Source of the DNA: a virus
IMG/VR virus record: IMGVR_UViG_3300022693_001297
Coordinates: 1-33,968 of that record
Length of the DNA stretch: 33,968 nt
Strand: one strand, 5' to 3'
Shown here: piece after piece, positions 1,677 to 33,352 of the stretch
Numbering within the stretch: position 1 is the first letter of the stretch
Layout: every line of letters starts with the position of its first letter
Made by a program: the position numbers and the translations under genes
Notes under the pieces: model-generated
Told to the model about the DNA's origin: nothing
Databases searched by the model: none
Seen by the model: only the letters and a program-made list of their open reading frames with translations

Positions 1677-4600
1677 ATGACAGTCGTAGCACAAGACCCG
1701 ATTAATCAAGTTCCAATCAAATCGAATCAAACCGCCATCCCCTGGACTTGGCAACTAAACCAGGAAACTGATTTAACAATATTTAGACTTTCTATAGATA
1801 CGGGACTTATTACTACCCTTGTTTTAGATTTCGATTATACGGTCAATTCTGCTGACTTGGGGAATAAGCTTGGAGGAACGATTACATTTTTATCGAATCA
1901 ACTTCCCACAGTTAATGGAGACATTTTTACTCTTCAAAGAAATACAGCCCTTGCTCGGAAAAAAGACTTTGCAACGTCCGGAGATTTCCAGGCAGTCACA
2001 GTCAATCCTCAACTCGATGATCCCATATTTATGGCTCAGGACGCGGCCAGAGACGCCCAGAACGCGGTAAGAAAGAATCCCGGAGTAGGTGATATCCTCG
2101 ATCCCCTTATTCCTCAGATGGTCGATAGAAGGACAATTGTTTTTGTAGATGCGGGAAGCGGTAATTTTAGCATGGTCATGTCTGATAATGACCCCGATGA
2201 GGCTCAGAATGACGCGGCGGCAAGTGCGGCGGCAGCTTTAGCATCTGAGCAAGCGGCGGAGGCTTCTGAAACTGCGGCGGAACAGTCGGCAGACGAGGCA
2301 GCACAATCAGCATTAGAGGCGGCGCAGGACGTACAAGGGATTCAAAATTTCTACCAGGAAACAAGAATAGCCGGACCTTATATTGGCGATAATTTTAACA
2401 CCTTAAATCAAACTGGTTCCCCGACAGGAATAGCATTCAGTACAACCGGCACAAAAATGTTTGTTCTTGGAACCAGGTTTATTTATGAATATGAACTTAC
2501 TAACCCTTTCAATCTTCACGAAGGAAATGTTTCTTTTACTGGATTCACAATTGATATTTCTGGAGAAATAGCTAATCCCCAGGACATCAAATTCAACAAT
2601 GATGGGACGTCTATCTATGTATTAGATGAGGATTCTCCTGAAAACATTCAGCAATATAGTTTGTCTATTGGATTTGATTTCTCAAGTACGATTACAACTT
2701 TATTGGCGTCTACTGTTTCGGGTAGCAGTTCCAACCCCAATGGATTCGTTTTTAACAATGACGGGACCAAAGTTTTTGTGGTTGATGGCGTTGATAAAAA
2801 GGTTTACGAATTCGATTTGTCCCCGGCTTTTACTATGGGTGGTGGTAACTTAACGACGACTGCTTCTGAACTTGATGTTTCTGCGGAACAAACAAAACCA
2901 ATTAGCATTCTTTTTAATGATGACGGAACAAAACTTTTTGTCCTTGACCGTTCTTCCTCCCGACAAGTCAATTCATACATTTTAGGGGATGCTTATGATT
3001 TAGGAAATGCACCTGTAATATTCACAGGAAACGAATTTGCCACGATAACGATTGACGATTCTGCGCAAGGAATGGCTTTCAGCGCCGATGGTTTAAAGTT
3101 ATTTGTGTCGGGCCAACAAGGACCGTCTGTCTACGAATATTTTTTTCCAGGACCCTTTGAAATTCCGCATGGTGCTACTTTTACCGGAAACGAGTTAAAC
3201 GTTCAAGGTCAAGATAATACTCCCATCGATTGTATATTTGATGATACCGGGAACAACTTCTATATGGTCGGAGAGAACACCAAAACTATTTATAATTATA
3301 GTTTACCTACCGCTTATAGCCTTGCAGGTGCATCCACCACCCCAATAGGCTCTTTTTCTCCTAGCGAATCTGGCAACCTAATAAATATGATATTTAGTCC
3401 AGATGGCTTAACCATGTTTATTTTATATGCAGATTCAGGAAGCATATTCCGACAATATACCTTGGCTACGGCCTTTGATTTTAATGATACCGTCACTTTT
3501 ACCGGGGATAGTTTTGATTTCAGCACTCAAGACGGTGGAGCTTTTGATATAGCATTCAGCGCAGATGGCCTCACATTACTAATGTTAGGAATACTGACGA
3601 CTACTGTTTATCAATATATTTTAGGTACTGCTTTTGATTTAGGGGGGACTGTTACCTTTACAAGTAACACCTTTGATCCTTCCTCAGAAGTGGATGATAT
3701 AGATAGCATGGTGTTGAGTCCCGATGGATTTACCATGATGATACTGGGAAGAGCCGTCGATCATTCAGGGTCAACTATTTATCAATATGATCTTGATGGC
3801 GCTTATAGTTTAGCTTCCCCTGTTTCTTTTAGTGGTAATTTTTACGGAGTCTCCGCACAAGACAATTTTATGGATGGGATCGCCTTTAATCCTGAGGGCA
3901 CCAAACTTATAACAGTTGGTAGGGGTAATGATAGAGCCTATGAATATGACCTGGCGCTAGGATTTAGCCTTAATCAATTTGTGTATCCAGTGGGGGATGA
4001 TGAAAATGGTTTGCTCCTGCAAGTGGCTACCACTCTCGGCACTGTGGATATAGTTCTACCCAATTCCGTTGATCTTGTTTCTAATTTTAGAGTAGGAGTA
4101 GTCAAGGTTTCCAGTGATTTTAACAAGGTTGTCGTATTCAAACAGGGCACCGATGCAATAAATATTACCGAGTCCACTATTGATATTGAGACCCAGGATA
4201 ATATTGTTTTATTTTTCCTAGATATATTGGAGCCAAACTGGCTCGCTGATGTCGGGGAAAGGTCAGCCGCCCTATACAATACCAATCAATTAATAGATAC
4301 TGGCAATTTAGGCCCTTTTGATACAGGATTTAATTTCCCTTCCGTTGACGACAACATACCTAAATCAATATCATTCAATGAAACCGGGTTGAGAATGTTT
4401 CTCCTGGGAGATCAATTTAACGATTTGCGTCAATATAAAATGCCTGTTCCTTTTTCTTTAGAATTTGCGGCTGAGGCACTTGTACATTCATTTGGCCTTG
4501 GATTCGTGATAACGGGTCCAAAAGGATTAGCTTTTTCTAAAAGTGGTCTTAATTTTTACGTATGCGGCACTGGGGGAACTGGGGCTGTATCTTCTCCCAA

Positions 4601-5858
4601 TGTTGTTGTTCAATTTGAACTGACAAAACCTTTTGATATTTCGACAGCGGGTTTCTTTAATTTTCATAATGTTAATACGCAGGAGCCCACGCCGACAGCC
4701 GTAAGATTTAATCCAAGCGGGCGGAAAATGTTTGTTTTGGGGACTACTAACGGAACATTATTTCAATGGACTTTAAGCTCACCAAACCAGGTACAAACTG
4801 CGGGGTCCCCTGATACTTCTATAGACCTCACCAGTGAGGATAGTTCTCCAATTGGATTTGATTTTAGCGACGACGGGTTGACTCTTATTATGGTAGGGGA
4901 TACCGGGAACACAGCTTATGAATATGTTCTAGACACGCCCTTTGATTTAACTGGATCATTTACTTTCACAGGGAAAACATTTTCTTTAACTGGGACTTCT
5001 CCGCGTTCGATTACTTTTAATACAGACCTTCGGGGGGTATTAGAAGCTGGGACCCGATTTTTTGTGGCCGATGCAGGGGGAATTGATATAGATCAATATG
5101 ATTGCCCGACTCCTTACGATCTAGAGGGGTCTTTTAATGTAACGCTAGAACAAAACGGATTTCTTTTTACCGTTGATTCTACAGTCGATATCCTAAAATT
5201 AACTCTTCCCGATTCAAGTTTGCTTCCTGGGGATTTCAGGTTTGGAGTGGTTAAGATTTCCGCAGACGCTAATTCTATTGATGTATTTCCAGCACCCAAT
5301 GGAACAGATACGATTAACGCTGGGTCCTCTATTAGTTTTGACACTCAGAATAAAGTTGTTCTTATTTCGTTAGACCAGGATACGGGGAACTGGACCGCTG
5401 ACCTTCCCATAGCTTTTCGGGGAGCTTTAGTTTATAAATCAGTTAACCAAGGTATACCTCTAGGTATTTTAACAACACTTACTTGGGAGCTAGAGGATTA
5501 TGATATAGGTGGTATACATGACATTGTAACAAATAACAGTCGTTTAACTGTTCCAGCAGGAGTTACAATCGTCCGCTTCACTACTAACATAATTTGGGAC
5601 ATTCTTGGCACTGCTAGTACTTTTATACAAGTACTCTTATATAAGAATGGAGTAAATATTAGAGGAGGTTTTTTCAATGTTCAGGAGGATTCTACTACAA
5701 TCGGTTCCACTCAAGGGCAGAATGGTTCTTCTGCTCCTATTTTTGTGACTGGAGGAGACTTTTTTGAGGTGCGTGTTTTCCAATTAAGCGCAGGGACTCT
5801 TGATGTATTAGATAATTCTGGTTTTGGGACATGGTTTGCAATGGAAATTGTAAAATAA
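1677..5858 (+). CDS. Tail fibre / receptor-binding protein with propeller-like repeats
   Basis: 1393 residues. Residues ~1-150 resemble the virion-attachment domain of T7-type fibres (YTVNSADLGNKL, QRNTALARKKDF). Residues ~165-225 are an Ala/Glu/Gln-rich helical stalk. Residues ~230-768 hold ten ~54-residue repeats with the core pattern F-x-DGTK-hFV...Y-Y-L...FDL, like YVTN/WD-type beta-propeller blades. A small beta domain follows (~768-860), then five more repeats (~868-1148), a second copy of that beta domain (~1150-1245) and a C-terminal jelly-roll-like domain (~1247-1393, resembling C1q/TNF folds). The same repeats occur inside the nozzle protein near the end of the window. The modular order suggests host-receptor binding at the distal end. 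The start follows the upstream stop closely (taataccATG), so translational coupling is likely. The fibre role is well supported; the ligand is unknown. Confidence 0.8.
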   Translation: MTVVAQDPINQVPIKSNQTAIPWTWQLNQETDLTIFRLSIDTGLITTLVLDFDYTVNSADLGNKLGGTITFLSNQLPTVNGDIFTLQRNTALARKKDFATSGDFQAVTVNPQLDDPIFMAQDAARDAQNAVRKNPGVGDILDPLIPQMVDRRTIVFVDAGSGNFSMVMSDNDPDEAQNDAAASAAAALASEQAAEASETAAEQSADEAAQSALEAAQDVQGIQNFYQETRIAGPYIGDNFNTLNQTGSPTGIAFSTTGTKMFVLGTRFIYEYELTNPFNLHEGNVSFTGFTIDISGEIANPQDIKFNNDGTSIYVLDEDSPENIQQYSLSIGFDFSSTITTLLASTVSGSSSNPNGFVFNNDGTKVFVVDGVDKKVYEFDLSPAFTMGGGNLTTTASELDVSAEQTKPISILFNDDGTKLFVLDRSSSRQVNSYILGDAYDLGNAPVIFTGNEFATITIDDSAQGMAFSADGLKLFVSGQQGPSVYEYFFPGPFEIPHGATFTGNELNVQGQDNTPIDCIFDDTGNNFYMVGENTKTIYNYSLPTAYSLAGASTTPIGSFSPSESGNLINMIFSPDGLTMFILYADSGSIFRQYTLATAFDFNDTVTFTGDSFDFSTQDGGAFDIAFSADGLTLLMLGILTTTVYQYILGTAFDLGGTVTFTSNTFDPSSEVDDIDSMVLSPDGFTMMILGRAVDHSGSTIYQYDLDGAYSLASPVSFSGNFYGVSAQDNFMDGIAFNPEGTKLITVGRGNDRAYEYDLALGFSLNQFVYPVGDDENGLLLQVATTLGTVDIVLPNSVDLVSNFRVGVVKVSSDFNKVVVFKQGTDAINITESTIDIETQDNIVLFFLDILEPNWLADVGERSAALYNTNQLIDTGNLGPFDTGFNFPSVDDNIPKSISFNETGLRMFLLGDQFNDLRQYKMPVPFSLEFAAEALVHSFGLGFVITGPKGLAFSKSGLNFYVCGTGGTGAVSSPNVVVQFELTKPFDISTAGFFNFHNVNTQEPTPTAVRFNPSGRKMFVLGTTNGTLFQWTLSSPNQVQTAGSPDTSIDLTSEDSSPIGFDFSDDGLTLIMVGDTGNTAYEYVLDTPFDLTGSFTFTGKTFSLTGTSPRSITFNTDLRGVLEAGTRFFVADAGGIDIDQYDCPTPYDLEGSFNVTLEQNGFLFTVDSTVDILKLTLPDSSLLPGDFRFGVVKISADANSIDVFPAPNGTDTINAGSSISFDTQNKVVLISLDQDTGNWTADLPIAFRGALVYKSVNQGIPLGILTTLTWELEDYDIGGIHDIVTNNSRLTVPAGVTIVRFTTNIIWDILGTASTFIQVLLYKNGVNIRGGFFNVQEDSTTIGSTQGQNGSSAPIFVTGGDFFEVRVFQLSAGTLDVLDNSGFGTWFAMEIVK

Positions 5859-19870: not shown

Positions 19871-21460
19871 ATGCCAGCCGCAAGCATTGAGGACACCGTA
19901 AAAAGAGCTAACACCGCCAACGATCAAAAGCAAAACTGGGTTGCACAGTATAGGGATGCTTACGAGTTCGGCCTTCCCATGCGTAACCTTTACGAAACCT
20001 TTCAGCCGGGCGCGGATAAAATGACCCGAGTCTTTGATTCCACGGCTATCATATCGACCCAGAAATTTGCTTCCCGTTTACAATCCAATCTCACTCCCCC
20101 ATTTCAGAACTGGCTTGACTTCTTACCCGGAACAGACGTTCCAGAGGATCAGGAGGACCAAGCCACCGAAATGCTTCAAGAGATTCAAAAGAAATTCTTT
20201 GCTGTAATCCAGAATTCAAACTTCGATACCTGTATTTCTGAGTTCTATCTTGATTTAGCCGTAGGAACCGCTGTCATGCTCATAACTGAGGGTGACGACG
20301 ACAACCCCGTAGTGTTTACCTGCGTACCAAATGCCCAGATATCTATGGATGAGGGACCGCTAGGGGCCGTTGACGGTGTATTTCGCCAGCATAATGTAGC
20401 GCCCCGGAACATTCAAGCCACTTGGAAGGATGTAACGGCCGCAGGGATGGCCGCGGTTAACCAATTGCAACGCGACGGGGGCGGCAAGATGCTCAATAAT
20501 GGTCTTACCAACATCCTTGAGGCTACCTATTTCGATCAAAAGGAAAAAGTATTCTGGTATCAGGTCATTCTTATGGGAACGCAGGACAACCAGAACATTT
20601 CCCCGCCCACAGCTACCCAGAATTTAGACAATTCAAGCGCGGTTTTACTGGTTGAACGCAAATTAGAGGAAAGTCCCTGGGTAGTTACCCGCTGGGTCAA
20701 GGTTGCCGGTGAGGTATTTGGCCGTGGTCCGTTGCTCTTTGCTCTCCCAGACATCAAGACTCTGAATAAAACTGTTGAGTTCATGCTACAGAATGCCTCT
20801 ATGTCCATAAATGGGATGTGGGAAACGGTGAACGACTCAATAGCCAACCTGGATATGGTCAACTTGGCTGCGGGAACATTCTTTCCGGTCGATCGCATGG
20901 GTGATATCAAACGCCTTGATACTCCTGGGGACCTTGGAATAGGTGAGGCCATCAGTGAGAAATTGAAAGGGGATATCCGAACAGCCTTGTTTGATAGATC
21001 CCTCCCCGATCCTGCGGGGCCTGTTCGTTCCCCAACTGAAATTATAGAGCGTGTCAAAGAATTGGCGCAGGATATTGGCTCTCCATTCGCCAGGATGATG
21101 TCTGAAATGCTGAAACCTACTGCCAGCCGAACCTTAAACATCATGGCCCGGCGTGGGTTGATTGATTTCCCTATCAAACTTGATGGCCGCGCGGTCAAGA
21201 TTCAGGCAACGTCCCCACTAGCTAAAGAGCAAGCTCTTAACGATCTTGAAAGCGCGGTCAACTGGTTGCAGATTGTCCAGGGCTTAGGTCCGGAGGTTCT
21301 AATCGGTGGCGTCAAGGTTGAGGACTTTCCGGAATGGGCTGGCGAGAAACTAGGGGTAGCTCAAGAACTTATCAGGGATGAGGGGGAAAGGGTTGAATTG
21401 CAGAAACAGGTGGCACAGTTGATTGCTCAGGCTCAACTTGCCCAACAACAACCAGCATAA
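19871..21460 (+). CDS. Portal (head-tail connector) protein
   Basis: 529 residues, close to T7 gp8 length. The N-terminus (NWVAQYRDAYEFGLPMRNLY, TRVFDSTAIISTQKFASRLQ, LTPPFQNWLDF) and the central LVERKLEESPWVVTRWVKV and GRGPLLFALPDIKTLNK segments are typical of the Head-tail_con family of podoviruses. It forms the dodecameric ring through which DNA is packaged and to which the tail adaptor binds. The C-terminus is Gln-rich. Its stop overlaps the start of a chimeric small ORF. Confidence 0.9.
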   Translation: MPAASIEDTVKRANTANDQKQNWVAQYRDAYEFGLPMRNLYETFQPGADKMTRVFDSTAIISTQKFASRLQSNLTPPFQNWLDFLPGTDVPEDQEDQATEMLQEIQKKFFAVIQNSNFDTCISEFYLDLAVGTAVMLITEGDDDNPVVFTCVPNAQISMDEGPLGAVDGVFRQHNVAPRNIQATWKDVTAAGMAAVNQLQRDGGGKMLNNGLTNILEATYFDQKEKVFWYQVILMGTQDNQNISPPTATQNLDNSSAVLLVERKLEESPWVVTRWVKVAGEVFGRGPLLFALPDIKTLNKTVEFMLQNASMSINGMWETVNDSIANLDMVNLAAGTFFPVDRMGDIKRLDTPGDLGIGEAISEKLKGDIRTALFDRSLPDPAGPVRSPTEIIERVKELAQDIGSPFARMMSEMLKPTASRTLNIMARRGLIDFPIKLDGRAVKIQATSPLAKEQALNDLESAVNWLQIVQGLGPEVLIGGVKVEDFPEWAGEKLGVAQELIRDEGERVELQKQVAQLIAQAQLAQQQPA

Positions 21461-21729
21461 TGTATCGTTCTCGTTTCACGAATGGTGAGGTGGATCCTCG
21501 AATAATTACAATGCGCTCCGATTTGGAGTTATTTGTAAATGGTGCATCTAAAATAAGGAATGCTCCGCGCTTCCCTTTTAAACATTTCTTGCAATGTAAT
21601 TATTTTAAAATAAAAAACAAAATAGAAATTAAATTATTAGATACTTTTTTAGGGAAAGTTGTAGATGGATTTTTTTATATTTTATTTTTTATGTTTTATT
21701 TAATAATTGATTATATGAATAAAAATTGA
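21460..21729 (+). pseudogene. Chimeric ORF: duplicated nozzle-gene 5' fragment fused to AT-rich sequence
   Basis: The first ~34 codons (FTNGEVDPRIITMRSDLELF and following VNGASKIRN) copy the N-terminus of the nozzle protein at 30227. A 43-base stretch (21503-21545) is identical to 30282-30324, and one codon is inserted. After about 21560 the similarity decays and ~140 bases of strongly AT-rich sequence encode a Lys-rich and then hydrophobic tail (FFYILFFMFYLIIDY). It looks like an intragenomic duplication joined to foreign DNA. Whether the 89-residue product is made is unknown; the start overlaps the portal stop. Confidence 0.6.
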
Positions 21730-27114: not shown

Positions 27115-27948
27115 ATGGCTCGCTCACTAACAAATAATGAAGTTGCAGAGTTTGACGCTCAAGTAAAACAGGCTTATCAGGGCTCAAGCATGATTCGTCC
27201 GTCAATCCGGGTAAAGACCGGCGTTGTCGGTGCTACTCACCAGTTCCCTAAATTCGGTAAAGGTCTGGCTACTCCCAGATTGCCACAGACCGATGTAATC
27301 CCGATGAACGTCCAGCAAACCAATGTAGTTGCCACGTTGGAAGATTGGAACGCTCCTGAATACACAGATATTTTCGATCAACAGAAGGTCAACTACTCCG
27401 AACGCGCAGAACTGGCCACTACGATAGCCGATGCAATTGGCAGACGGTCAGACCAACTTCTGATTGATGCAATGGACGCCGCTACTGGCTTGGCCGGTAC
27501 GATCCCCTCCGCGGTTCTGACCGTGGCTACCCTCCGGGAAGCATCCAAGTTCCTGAATGACCAAGCTGTGCCCTCATCCGATCGGCATATCATTTGGAGT
27601 CCTACGGCACAGGAACAGCTTTTGGGAACCACCGAGGCTACCAGTTCCGATTTTGCGGTGGTCAAAGCATTGGTAAACGGTGATATCAATTCTTTCATGG
27701 GCTTCAAGTTCATAATGATTGAAACCCGAGAAGAAGGCGGCTTACCTCTTTCCGGTAATGACCGGACCTGTTTTGCTTATCACGGCGGAATGCGCGGTTC
27801 TACTGGTTACGCTATCGGTATTGATTTCAGGACTACGGTTGATTGGATTGCTGAGAAAACTTCCTGGTTGTCTAATGGATTGTTTTCTGCCGGAGCCGTT
27901 GTTATTGACCCATTGGGTATTGTTAAATTTATCGTTGACGAAACCTAA
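27115..27948 (+). CDS. Major capsid protein
   Basis: 277 residues. FDAQVKQAYQGSSMIRPSIR, VVATLEDWNAPEYTDIFDQQ, IADAIGRRSDQLLIDAMD and HIIWSPTAQEQLLG are characteristic of HK97-fold major capsid proteins of the Phage_capsid_2 type found in many podoviruses. It forms the icosahedral shell on the scaffold. The 3' end has ordinary coding composition, and the gene has its own long structured leader, consistent with high expression. No N-terminal delta/protease domain is visible; the separate scaffold serves that role. Confidence 0.85.
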   Translation: MARSLTNNEVAEFDAQVKQAYQGSSMIRPSIRVKTGVVGATHQFPKFGKGLATPRLPQTDVIPMNVQQTNVVATLEDWNAPEYTDIFDQQKVNYSERAELATTIADAIGRRSDQLLIDAMDAATGLAGTIPSAVLTVATLREASKFLNDQAVPSSDRHIIWSPTAQEQLLGTTEATSSDFAVVKALVNGDINSFMGFKFIMIETREEGGLPLSGNDRTCFAYHGGMRGSTGYAIGIDFRTTVDWIAEKTSWLSNGLFSAGAVVIDPLGIVKFIVDET

Positions 27949-29603: not shown

Positions 29604-30227
29604 ATGGCGTCCGATGTTCAAATATGTTCCGCGGCGCTCGTAAGGTTAGGGTCAGACTCGATCAGTTCTTTTGAGGAATTGTCTGTAGGTCCCTTGTGTG
29701 CCGAGATTTTCCCAGATGTTAAATTGAGGGTATTAACAGCCGCACCCTGGCGCGTTATTATCTTCAAATCGTTACAGCTGACTCAAACTCTGACAGAGCC
29801 CCCAACTCAATACGAATTTGAGTACCAGCTGCCCGCTGATATGCTCACCGGTTTGCCCAGGACCGTCTGGGATAGTTCCTTTAATTCCGGCAGAGGCACC
29901 CAATATACCGACTTTGATATTTTTGGACGGTTGCTCTTAACCAATTCCCCGCAAATCTTTGTTGATTACTCAGTTGATATCGACCCGGAATTACTTCCTC
30001 CTCATATCAACCAGCTTATGATCTACGCTATGATGGCGGAACTGGCTTTCCCGGTTACCGATCAACAAAGTGTGGTTGATGCGGCGCAAAAAATAGCCTG
30101 GGGAACGCCGGAACAAGCAGGAAAGGGCGGGTACTTCAAAGAGGCTCAACGCATAGACTCCCAGGGCCATCCCAGCCAGGCCATCAAAAACTATCCCCTT
30201 ACGGCGGTCCGTCACGGTGGTTTATAG
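29604..30227 (+). CDS. Tail tubular protein A-like adaptor
   Basis: 207 residues. MASDVQICSAALVRLGSDSI and the later YEFEYQLPADMLTGLPRTVW, with LMIYAMMAELAFPVTDQQSV, match T7 gp11-type adaptor (gatekeeper) proteins, which join portal and tail nozzle. Length is normal. The stop overlaps the GTG of the nozzle gene, as in related phages. Confidence 0.85.
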   Translation: MASDVQICSAALVRLGSDSISSFEELSVGPLCAEIFPDVKLRVLTAAPWRVIIFKSLQLTQTLTEPPTQYEFEYQLPADMLTGLPRTVWDSSFNSGRGTQYTDFDIFGRLLLTNSPQIFVDYSVDIDPELLPPHINQLMIYAMMAELAFPVTDQQSVVDAAQKIAWGTPEQAGKGGYFKEAQRIDSQGHPSQAIKNYPLTAVRHGGL

Positions 30228-33200
30228 TGGCGAAACTCCGACCGGTAAAAACCAACTTTACGAATGGTGAGGTTGACCCTCTAATTACAATGCGCTCCGA
30301 TTTGGAGTTATTTGTAAATGGTGCCGCTAAAATGCGTAACGTCTTAGCCTTCCCCCAGGGTGGTTTCAGGCGCAGAGATGGCCTGGAAACCATGACCCAA
30401 ATTCCTCCGACAGGGGCAGAACCCATAGGATTGGCTGATATTGAAATAGCCTCAGGTGGTACAGGTTATGTGGTTGATGATATTTTAACTGTTTTGGGTG
30501 GGATATCCTCTCTGGCCGCACAATTCAGAGTGGCTGAGGTAACCGCAGGAGTGATTACAGAAATTGAAATGACAAGGATAGGAGATTATTCGATTGTTCC
30601 TTTAACACCGCCAGCCTCAACCAGTGGAGGAAGCGGAACGGGCGCAACTGTAAATTTTACAGCCAATCCCCAGGATGTTGTTAAATTAATAGATTTCAGT
30701 TTTTCTATCAGCCAGAATTATATAATCGCCTTCACGGTTGGCCGCTACTATGTATTCCGGAAAGAAGATACCGGGTCCGGACCCAACCAATTAGTTTTTG
30801 AAGATATTAACGGGGTCTATGATAACCAGCAGTTAAACGAAATCACCTGGACGCAAAGTCTGGACGTTATGATTATTTTTCATAATGAACTGCCCATGCG
30901 AAAATTTACGCGGGTAGCTGAAACTAACTGGACTTTCGTTGAATTTTTCGTAACCAATCCTCCGACCTTTGCATTTGGTCTTATCCAAACTTCCAGTATA
31001 AGTGTGACCTTTGGCGCTTCTACCTTAGTAGGTTCAATCAGACAGGTTACAGCCGCACCCAATACTTTTGTGAGTTCTGATGTTGGTAAATATATAAGAA
31101 TTTTTGCGGGTATTGATGCGGACGGGCAAAACTTTTCCTCATATTTAAGAATCACTACTTTTACATCTAATGCAATAGTGCAAGCTACTTTCTTGGTTTT
31201 GCCAATAGTAAGCACTATAGCTTCTTATTCTGTAGGAGGCACAGACTGGCTTATAGAGGAAGAAGAATTTAGCCCTGCACATGGTTATCCCAGATGCGGC
31301 CAGTTTTACCAGGGGCGTCTGGTTACAGCGGCCACAACCGATCGACCCCAAACTATGTTTACGTCCAGAGCCGGGGATATCAACGATTTTAACAGCGGTA
31401 CAACGGCGGACGACCTGGGCATAGTTGCAACGGCTGATTCGGGAACGCAAACAATAATTCAGAATATCCATGCCGGGCGCCATCTTCAATTTTTCGGGGA
31501 CAATTCAGAATACTATATTCCCATTTCAGAGTTTGAGCCTATTACTCCTAATAATTTTTCATTCAGGCAAACCAGCACAATAGGATCGATTGCAGGAATC
31601 CCGGTCTTTGACGTTGATGGTATCGTTTATTTTACTCAGCGCGGTGGCGAATCGTTTAGAGAGTTCGCTTTTGTCGATGGCGTTAAGGCTTATGAGGCAA
31701 ATGTGGTTTCTCTTTTTTCCAGTCACTTAATCAGGAATCCTAATGATGCGGCATTTAAGAAATCCTTAAATACAGAAGATGGTAATTATATTTGGGTTGT
31801 GAATGGGGATGATTTTTCTTTAGCCGTTTTCAGTTTATTGAAATCCGAATTGATCAACGCTTGGTCATTGCAGACTACACAAGGAAAATTTAAAGGCGTT
31901 GCGGTATCAGACCAGGATACTTATTTCCATATCAGCCGTAATCCTGGGGGAACCATAGACTTTTCCGGAAACTTTAGGGAATTGTCAGTTAGTCAGGGCG
32001 CAGACTCTAACCCCCAGGGTGTCGCAATGAGTAACGACGGAACCATGATGTTTGTGGTGAGTAATAAGACAGACAAAGTTTACGAATATGCTCTCAATAC
32101 TCCATTCAGTTTGGAGCGAGTGGTTTTCACTGGAAACGAGTTTGACCTGTCCGGGGAAACTTTAGAGCCTAAGGACATCGTTATCAGTCCAGACGGTTTG
32201 AAAATGTTTATTATCGCCTTGGATTCTGATGAAATCATTGAATACGATATGGCCGACCCGAACAGCCTTTTTCTGGGCAATGTAACGGACTCCGGCTTTC
32301 GATTGGATTTAGATGCGGCAGGTATAAACGATCCAACAGGACTGGATTTCAGTGTGAATGGGATTGATATTCTTCTAGTCGATTCTGTTTTAGATAAATG
32401 TTTTCATTTCACCGCTAATACAGCATTTACCTTTGAAGATGGAACCGTAGATACTGGTCAAGAGTTGGATAACTCCGGGCAATCTATAAACCCTCAAGAT
32501 GCTAAATGGAGTGGGGACGGTTTCAGGGTCTTTGTTGTCGATGGAACAGAAGAGAAGATTTTTCAATATGTTTTAACAACAGCTTTTGACCTGGATACGG
32601 CTAACATTATTGATGTTATTTCTTTTTCAGTAGCGAATGAAGACCTCACACCTTTCGGAATGACATTTAGTTCAAATGGATTAAAGATTTTTATTGCAGG
32701 AACAACCACTGATTCTATTTATGAGTATGATCTTTCTAACCCTTTCATGTTCGGTCCTAAAACAGATTGGATTGAGTTTTTCCAGAGGAATTTAAGATTT
32801 GACGCTGCGGTTTGCCAGTTCAGCGGTATCACCACTCCCATAACTGAAATCACAGGACAAACTCAATTAGCCAATGAAACTGTGGGAATCATCATTGACG
32901 ATATTATCTATGAAAATCAGGTCGTGGATGCCGATGGGGATTTAACTTTCCCAATTGAAGCCCATTATAATTTTCAAATCGGTTTACCTTTCCCGAATAT
33001 CATTTTACCTGATGAGAATAATGTAGATGTTGACACTGGTTTTAATGTCCTGGTCCGGACTTTACCGGCTGATGTTTTGCTTCAAACAGGAACGACAATG
33101 GGAAAAAAGAAACGAGTTGTTTCCTGTACCGTTCGCTTTGTCGATACCCAAGGGTTTTATTTGCAATCCAACCTGGTTCCTTTCAGGTTTTTGCCTCAAG

Positions 33201-33352
33201 TCCTGGACCGTCCCATTCCATTACAGACCGGGGAAAAAGAATTAAGGGGTTTGCTGGGTTATAACAATCTGGGTGAAATCACAATAGCACAGAGAGAACC
33301 CCTGGCCATGACCGTCCTGGGCATGGGTTACGATCTTTCTACAGGGACATAA
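30227..33352 (+). CDS. Tail nozzle protein (T7 gp12-like) with inserted propeller-like repeats
   Basis: 1041 residues from GTG 30227. The N-terminus (FTNGEVDPLITMRSDLELFV) and conserved middle (HGYPRCGQFYQGRLVTAATT, GDNSEYYIPIS) and C-terminal parts (IEFFQRNLRFDAAV, LPADVLLQTGTTMGKKKRV) are those of podoviral tail nozzle/stabilisation proteins. Three extra modules are inserted: a GGTGY-VDD-LTVLGG domain (~68-150), a beta segment near 260-340, and ~270 residues (about 573-845) of five propeller-like repeats (DGLKMFI, DGFRVFVVDG) of the same family as in the tail fibre. The last insertion sits between the HISRN strand and the WIEFF segment that are adjacent in ordinary family members. It would be displayed on the outside of the tail tip. 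Stop overlaps the next start (TAATG). Confidence 0.85.
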   Translation: MAKLRPVKTNFTNGEVDPLITMRSDLELFVNGAAKMRNVLAFPQGGFRRRDGLETMTQIPPTGAEPIGLADIEIASGGTGYVVDDILTVLGGISSLAAQFRVAEVTAGVITEIEMTRIGDYSIVPLTPPASTSGGSGTGATVNFTANPQDVVKLIDFSFSISQNYIIAFTVGRYYVFRKEDTGSGPNQLVFEDINGVYDNQQLNEITWTQSLDVMIIFHNELPMRKFTRVAETNWTFVEFFVTNPPTFAFGLIQTSSISVTFGASTLVGSIRQVTAAPNTFVSSDVGKYIRIFAGIDADGQNFSSYLRITTFTSNAIVQATFLVLPIVSTIASYSVGGTDWLIEEEEFSPAHGYPRCGQFYQGRLVTAATTDRPQTMFTSRAGDINDFNSGTTADDLGIVATADSGTQTIIQNIHAGRHLQFFGDNSEYYIPISEFEPITPNNFSFRQTSTIGSIAGIPVFDVDGIVYFTQRGGESFREFAFVDGVKAYEANVVSLFSSHLIRNPNDAAFKKSLNTEDGNYIWVVNGDDFSLAVFSLLKSELINAWSLQTTQGKFKGVAVSDQDTYFHISRNPGGTIDFSGNFRELSVSQGADSNPQGVAMSNDGTMMFVVSNKTDKVYEYALNTPFSLERVVFTGNEFDLSGETLEPKDIVISPDGLKMFIIALDSDEIIEYDMADPNSLFLGNVTDSGFRLDLDAAGINDPTGLDFSVNGIDILLVDSVLDKCFHFTANTAFTFEDGTVDTGQELDNSGQSINPQDAKWSGDGFRVFVVDGTEEKIFQYVLTTAFDLDTANIIDVISFSVANEDLTPFGMTFSSNGLKIFIAGTTTDSIYEYDLSNPFMFGPKTDWIEFFQRNLRFDAAVCQFSGITTPITEITGQTQLANETVGIIIDDIIYENQVVDADGDLTFPIEAHYNFQIGLPFPNIILPDENNVDVDTGFNVLVRTLPADVLLQTGTTMGKKKRVVSCTVRFVDTQGFYLQSNLVPFRFLPQVLDRPIPLQTGEKELRGLLGYNNLGEITIAQREPLAMTVLGMGYDLSTGT

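Follow-up and report, generated by a model that had tools for sequence, protein, structure and literature searches.

Can the DNA-gating nozzle of a podovirus carry an adhesin domain of the tail-fibre type? The question is raised by one gene of the IMG/VR viral record IMGVR_UViG_3300022693_001297; the window analysed here is the whole record, 33,968 bases with the podovirus gene set of a short-tailed phage of marine type. The gene encodes a nozzle (tail tubular protein B), and within it lie repeats resembling those of the tail fibre encoded in the same window. We propose that a tail-fibre-type five-bladed β-propeller is inserted in a hairpin of the nozzle, with six copies on the outer flank, most likely for adhesion, and we put the probability of this reading at roughly 0.6. 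The two genes concerned are:

30227–33352, + strand: nozzle (tail tubular protein B) gene, 1041 amino acids, GTG start.
1677–5858, + strand: tail fibre gene, 1393 amino acids, with 10 + 5 repeats (2358–3980 and 4278–5135) located with the tail-fibre hidden Markov model (HMM) and tblastn.

The assignment of open reading frame (ORF) 30227–33352 is firm: it is a podovirus nozzle of the T7 gp12 / phrog_376 type. It belongs to the profile of phrog_376 (E = 4e-94), and the adaptor gene (tail tubular A, phrog_394) lies directly upstream and overlaps its start. In the AlphaFold2 (AF2) model, the nozzle body has a predicted local distance difference test score (pLDDT) of mostly 80–92, and Foldseek matches the model to the solved nozzles of LME-1 (9efk_M, E = 2e-45), Carin1 (8ck1_A, E = 2e-38) and T7 (6r21, E = 2e-17), as well as to those of HRP29 and P-SCSP1u; 8ck1_A and 9efk_M are also matched by sequence profile. 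By nozzle sequence, the closest isolated phages are Methylophilales phage MEP301 and Pelagibacter phages such as HTVC203P. The nozzle body is itself a seven-bladed propeller, present in all nozzles of this kind and unrelated to the repeats discussed here.

When an HMM trained only on the 15 tail-fibre repeats (ORF 1677–5858) was applied to the nozzle, it recognised exactly five repeats, YVTN-like and ~53 residues long, with a total of 151.9 bits; the best of 1000 shuffled nozzles reached 9.0 bits. The five repeats are:

32006–32158, + strand: repeat 1, residues 594–644, 53.0 bits with the tail-fibre HMM.
32168–32311, + strand: repeat 2, residues 648–695, 27.9 bits.
32327–32479, + strand: repeat 3, the most diverged, residues 701–751, 8.3 bits.
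32489–32611, + strand: repeat 4, residues 755–795, 35.3 bits.
32648–32755, + strand: repeat 5, residues 808–843, 38.7 bits.

In a tblastn comparison of the nozzle with its own genome, the insert paired with the tail fibre (E = 1e-33, 34% identity). Thus, the kinship with the fibre repeats that an initial annotation had proposed for five ~53-residue nozzle repeats is upheld by both the HMM and tblastn.

The limits of the insert are set by its relatives and by the AF2 model:

31958–32761, + strand: inserted five-bladed β-propeller, residues 578–845, delimited by the empty site in contigs L010, L011, L012 and L014 and by AF2.
31916–31957, + strand: first strand and half-turn of the host hairpin, residues 564–577, TYFHISRNPGGTI, from the family alignment and AF2 strand 564–571.
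32762–32785, + strand: return strand of the host hairpin, residues 846–853, TDWIEFFQ, from the family alignment and AF2 strand 846–853.

The insertion point is the turn of a conserved nozzle hairpin that, in most of the family, has the form VYxxVKRTINGxT (first strand and half-turn) followed by RYVE (return strand). In four IMG/VR relatives whose nozzles are 58–60% identical (L010, L011, L012 and L014), the domain is missing and ...TYFHVQRTIDGQL is directly joined to VDYIEFFN..., and in the window nozzle both hairpin strands, 564–571 and 846–853, are kept in the full-length AF2 model. The clean empty site bears out the earlier claim that the repeats interrupt an otherwise normal nozzle sequence, and the extent then given, residues ~573–845, agrees with the 578–845 derived here. 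Two other relatives carry an insert at this point: L009 (76% identical) has the propeller at the same position, and L013 (50% identical) has a different, 72-residue insert at the hairpin. In a tree built from insert-free columns, the window and L009 group together (support 100), the four empty-site nozzles form the neighbouring clade and L013 falls outside (94), so that two changes are needed at the hairpin site.

The insert and the full-length nozzle were modelled separately because an alignment mixing fibre fragments with full nozzles misplaced the fragments. Folded by AF2 from a 60-row alignment of five-repeat blocks, the insert reached a mean pLDDT of 91.3 and a predicted template-modelling score (pTM) of 0.91, its 20 strands falling into five sets of four. 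As modelled, the insert is a closed five-bladed β-propeller and an independent domain, which agrees with the initial annotation of a separate domain. The full-length model gives the insert a much similar strand pattern at lower confidence. One further element completes the predicted fold:

31976–31987, + strand: N-terminal strand of the insert, the 'velcro' closure, residues 584–587, from DSSP of the AF2 model and the repeat register.

The last blade lacks a fourth strand of its own; this first strand falls into register there (AF2 and repeat register) and should complete the blade in the usual velcro closure.

The five-blade reading is not dependent on AF2 alone, given the arrays found in other viruses. 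In 79 IMG/VR loci, 163 interior repeat arrays were counted (near-identical contigs included, so that the counts are not independent); 154/163 are multiples of five, with five repeats in 150/163, ten in 2 and twenty in 2; none of the multiple-of-five arrays in these loci lies in a nozzle ORF. The same repeat and the same five-blade unit are present in Lentibacter phage ICBM2 gp51, Roseobacter phage CRP-13 gp43 and many IMG/VR contigs, but there the propeller belongs to fibre-like or uncharacterised ORFs, and none was found in a nozzle. The repeats thus outline a five-bladed YVTN-like propeller family, widespread and apparently unnamed, in marine viral fibre-like proteins (IMG/VR loci L129–L207), with one hypervariable face. 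In L011, whose nozzle is insert-free, exactly five repeats end another ORF (L011:2-1621, 540 amino acids, upstream of the capsid gene); the module therefore moves between virion proteins.

A structural search of BFVD gave unnamed marine phage proteins as top matches (template-modelling score (TM) 0.87, root-mean-square deviation 1.6–1.7 Å), and no specific family for the insert propeller was found in Pfam, NCBIfam or PHROGs. The window nozzle scores 20.6 bits against Pfam SGL, below the cut-off of 26.3, and has five blades, unlike the seven- or six-bladed YVTN, SGL and lactonase propellers; L009 just passes both SGL and Lactonase. An IMG/VR scan with the insert alone yielded no confirmed relative; relatives were found with a three-sequence alignment. 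The closest PDB chain by sequence is the Methanosarcina S-layer YVTN propeller 1l0q (E = 1.6e-6), which has a YVTN-type blade but more and shorter blades than the insert (seven) and a TM of only 0.45.

How common are inserts at this hairpin? Our alignment comprised 189 nozzle homologues, of which 20 belong to named phages and the others came from IMG/VR scans, and an insert was counted when it had at least 25 residues; the IMG/VR sets were the best 80 matches to insert-free queries, and insert-bearing nozzles may be under-counted. Only 3/189 nozzles (window, L009 and L013) have an insert at the hairpin, and in 2/189 (window and L009) it is the propeller. The tail-fibre HMM, run over 109 nozzles, found propeller repeats only in the same two, and 80 further nozzles added to the alignment had no insert at the hairpin site. 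The architecture is thus as unusual as had been suspected, and the repeats are not a normal, ubiquitous part of nozzles, judging from this search of the family at the same point. Inserts elsewhere are common: at site ~62 in 11/189 nozzles, at sites 184–189 in 54/189, at 274–298 in many, at 349, at 555 in 2 and at 867–873 in dozens.

Between the window and L009, the insert has 0.205 nonsynonymous substitutions per site (dN) despite saturated synonymous sites (proportion of differing sites, pS, 0.77), which indicates, at the sequence level, that it is maintained under purifying selection. The loops of the propeller differ strongly in variability. Over 58 rows, the mean entropy of the BC and DA loops is 2.24 bits vs 0.97 for AB and CD (p = 3e-12), and between the window and L009, 25/56 loop positions changed in BC and DA vs 10/53 in AB and CD (p = 0.004). 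To judge from the strand order, both chain ends pass through the C–D gap of the last blade and thus lie on the conserved face, so that the variable BC/DA face should be turned outwards from the nozzle. Such a fold, with a constant framework and a single variable face exposed, in a family otherwise seen in fibre-like proteins, plausibly has the look of a host-binding domain. Taken with the shared tail-fibre family and the purifying selection, the one hypervariable face makes a second receptor-binding surface the likeliest role of the insert, and a plausible one.

There are precedents for both the fold and the nozzle in such a role. A five-bladed propeller is present in the receptor-binding protein of phage phi11, gp45, an adsorption protein proposed to bind N-acetylglucosamine (GlcNAc) of wall teichoic acid (PMC4901313). 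The phi11 propeller differs, however, in belonging to the trimeric receptor-binding protein of a siphophage; the likeness is one of fold description, and gp45 was absent from the 50 best PDB matches in a fold search with the insert. Tail tubular protein B has been reported to bind a host receptor (PMC7241545) and to alter host range (PMC10904470).

Where the insert sits in the virion can be approached through T7. Aligned with hhalign, this nozzle family matches T7-like gp12 with a probability of 99% (E = 9.5e-18), the hairpin falling at T7 residues ~560–578, directly after C554, a residue placed in blade 1, which is the velcro blade and lies at the head-proximal 'upper' opening (PMC6702177). 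In T7, a loop of blade 3 gives rise to the tip domain, and beyond the propeller's end, at the outer surface, comes the fibre dock (PMC6702177). With the hairpin in blade 1 next to the fibre dock and the tip departing from blade 3, the insert would lie on the nozzle's outer flank, close to the fibre dock; the earlier placement on the nozzle tip is not supported. Since T7-type nozzles are hexamers at the tail end (PMC6702177), each virion should carry six copies of the insert. T7 gp12 and its relatives (6r21, HRP29, P-SCSP1u, Kp9 and PhiM1) have the nozzle fold in common, with platform, seven-bladed propeller, fibre dock and tip, but the T7-type profile has no domain of the insert's size at the blade-1 hairpin. 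The SU10 nozzle also has an extension of blade 1, with Ig-like (immunoglobulin-like) domains inserted elsewhere, between blades 2 and 3 (PMC9509320); its blade-1 extension, however, is a loop docking its own short fibre, not a folded propeller.

In the mechanism that we propose, a complete fibre-type propeller, its ends lying together, would have been inserted in the hairpin turn of the last ('velcro') blade of the nozzle, whose seven-bladed fold would stay intact and gain an independent globular domain. In the hexamer, six propellers would surround the outer flank near the site of fibre docking, away from the tip. The variable face (BC and DA loops), directed away from the point of attachment, would bind a host surface structure such as a glycan or an outer-membrane component, and the propellers would supplement the tail fibres, either during adsorption or when the nozzle is being positioned.

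The same location also suits the main rival, in which the propeller is a docking or bracing element that holds the tail fibre, or a second type of fibre, without host contact. Blade 1 is where the extension that docks the short tail fibre of SU10 arises (PMC9509320), the site is close to the T7 fibre dock (PMC6702177), and fibre and insert belong to one propeller family. Four close relatives, however, have no domain at the site, and the hypervariability of the BC and DA loops across the family is more in keeping with an external ligand that changes than with a partner that is conserved, which leaves a docking role unlikely.

Less probable still is a propeller that binds nothing in particular: a surface decoration, neutral or sticky in a general way, which came in by recombination and persists because the turn is permissive. 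The small domains at sites ~62, 184–189, 274–298, 349, 555 and 867–873 make insertion a common event in nozzles, and the presence of the propeller varies among close relatives; yet the five-blade unit is intact in both lineages that carry it, at a dN of 0.205 and with synonymous changes saturated, which points to selection for keeping it. That the propeller is an enzyme cleaving a host surface polymer seems very improbable. Glycoside hydrolases are known among five-bladed propellers and hydrolases among those of the SGL/lactonase type, and weak Pfam matches to SGL and Lactonase would accord with an enzyme, but these matches cover generic blade motifs only, and the conserved columns (mainly F, G, DG, K, Y and L) look like scaffold residues. 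An assembly chimera, with a piece of the tail-fibre gene misjoined into that of the nozzle, might be feared in a metagenome-derived contig whose repeats resemble its tail fibre, but we reject such an artefact as having next to no likelihood, given the same insert at the same position in the independent contig L009 (76% identical), the mere 34% identity between insert and fibre, and a frame open throughout.

Several results weigh against adhesion by an outward-facing flank domain, the reading that we prefer. The hypervariability of the loops across the family reflects mostly non-nozzle members, and a ligand pocket was not identified in the insert. The location in the virion derives from a profile alignment to T7 at 15% identity; in the full-length model, the pLDDT of the insert is about 40–74 because only two alignment rows cover it, so that its orientation to the nozzle is not fixed. 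The insert has no close solved five-bladed relative, the best PDB matches having a TM of 0.4–0.6.

Virion proteins of phages are already known to take up adhesin-like domains as modules; the present case gains interest from its recipient, the DNA-gating nozzle, and from the use of the same turn by unrelated domains in other nozzles. Nozzles have mostly been viewed as channel and gate, with host recognition ascribed to fibres and spikes. A nozzle adhesin domain would fit the scattered reports of tail tubular protein B binding receptors or changing host range, and the presence or absence of such a fibre-type domain among close relatives offers a natural comparison for the part of the nozzle in adsorption or triggering. 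Apart from the nozzle, the rule of five repeats delineates a propeller family that is widespread in marine phages and apparently unnamed; one of its faces is hypervariable, and it has no close solved structure.

The closest solved nozzle by fold, that of LME-1 (PDB 9efk chain M, orf18, 818 amino acids; target-normalised TM (TMt) 0.73 for the match at E = 2e-45), is outside the 189-nozzle set and is detectable by sequence profile (E = 1e-91). It has an extra ~145 residues at exactly the same hairpin (VIVEREIN...RIYLERQS), but this insert is shorter than the propeller and of other sequence; it matches no PHROG, and by eye it lacks propeller repeats. The propeller, the L013 insert and the LME-1 insert are found at one turn, which therefore appears to be a rare, reusable plug-in site. 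We advance only tentatively, at somewhat less than even odds, that the velcro-blade hairpin turn is a reusable site at which podoviruses acquire and exchange independent host-recognition domains. If true, this would make the DNA-gating nozzle a second, six-copy receptor-binding organ besides the fibres.

Turning to the origin of the insert, a recent copy of the window's own fibre is rejected: fibre block 1 ranks only 31st among ~120 blocks and is 34% identical to the insert. A tree of propeller blocks was unresolved, and the guanine plus cytosine (GC) content is uninformative on origin (insert 40.7%, rest of nozzle 43%, fibre propellers 39.4%). The simplest reading is that the domain came from a common pool of fibre domains and was taken up before the window and L009 diverged; alternatively, it may have been lost in the four empty-site relatives.

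Two further observations concern other parts of the nozzle gene. In the window, an 89-residue ORF right behind the portal gene (21460–21729) starts with a partial copy of the nozzle N-terminus, ~40 residues at 70% identity; at the DNA level, 80 bp are 90% identical. A second copy of the nozzle N-terminus was not found in six related contigs, some of them short fragments; the piece has the look of a minor duplication or of a scar left by recombination. The last ~57 bases of the L009 contig are, on the reverse strand, an inverted piece of its own nozzle gene that does not touch the insert, and this inverted repeat is probably an assembly or amplification artefact.

The remaining features of the window referred to here are:

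19871–21460: portal gene.
27115–27948: major capsid protein gene.
29604–30227: tail tubular A gene, with a match to phrog_394.
30413–30676, + strand: second accessory domain of the nozzle, GSGY..GD type, residues ~63–150; an insert of 79–270 residues lies at site 62 in 11/189 nozzles.

This second extra domain, separate from the propeller and variable in the family, corrects the initial annotation. GSGYxVGD-type domains are missing from most nozzles; in L013, the domain has grown to ~270 residues (nozzle residues ~65–334), with several GSGY-like copies. Small accessory domains at other surface points are frequent in nozzles of this family. They include an E1_FCCH-like domain in L020 (PF16190, E = 7.5e-15), and accessory domains are present as well in the nozzles of Vibrio phage 1.021.C, Vibrio phage PS25B.1 and Microcystis phage Mel-JY33 (L035, L036 and L026), annotated as 'FCCH domain' or, in PS25B.1, as 'chitin-binding type-3'.

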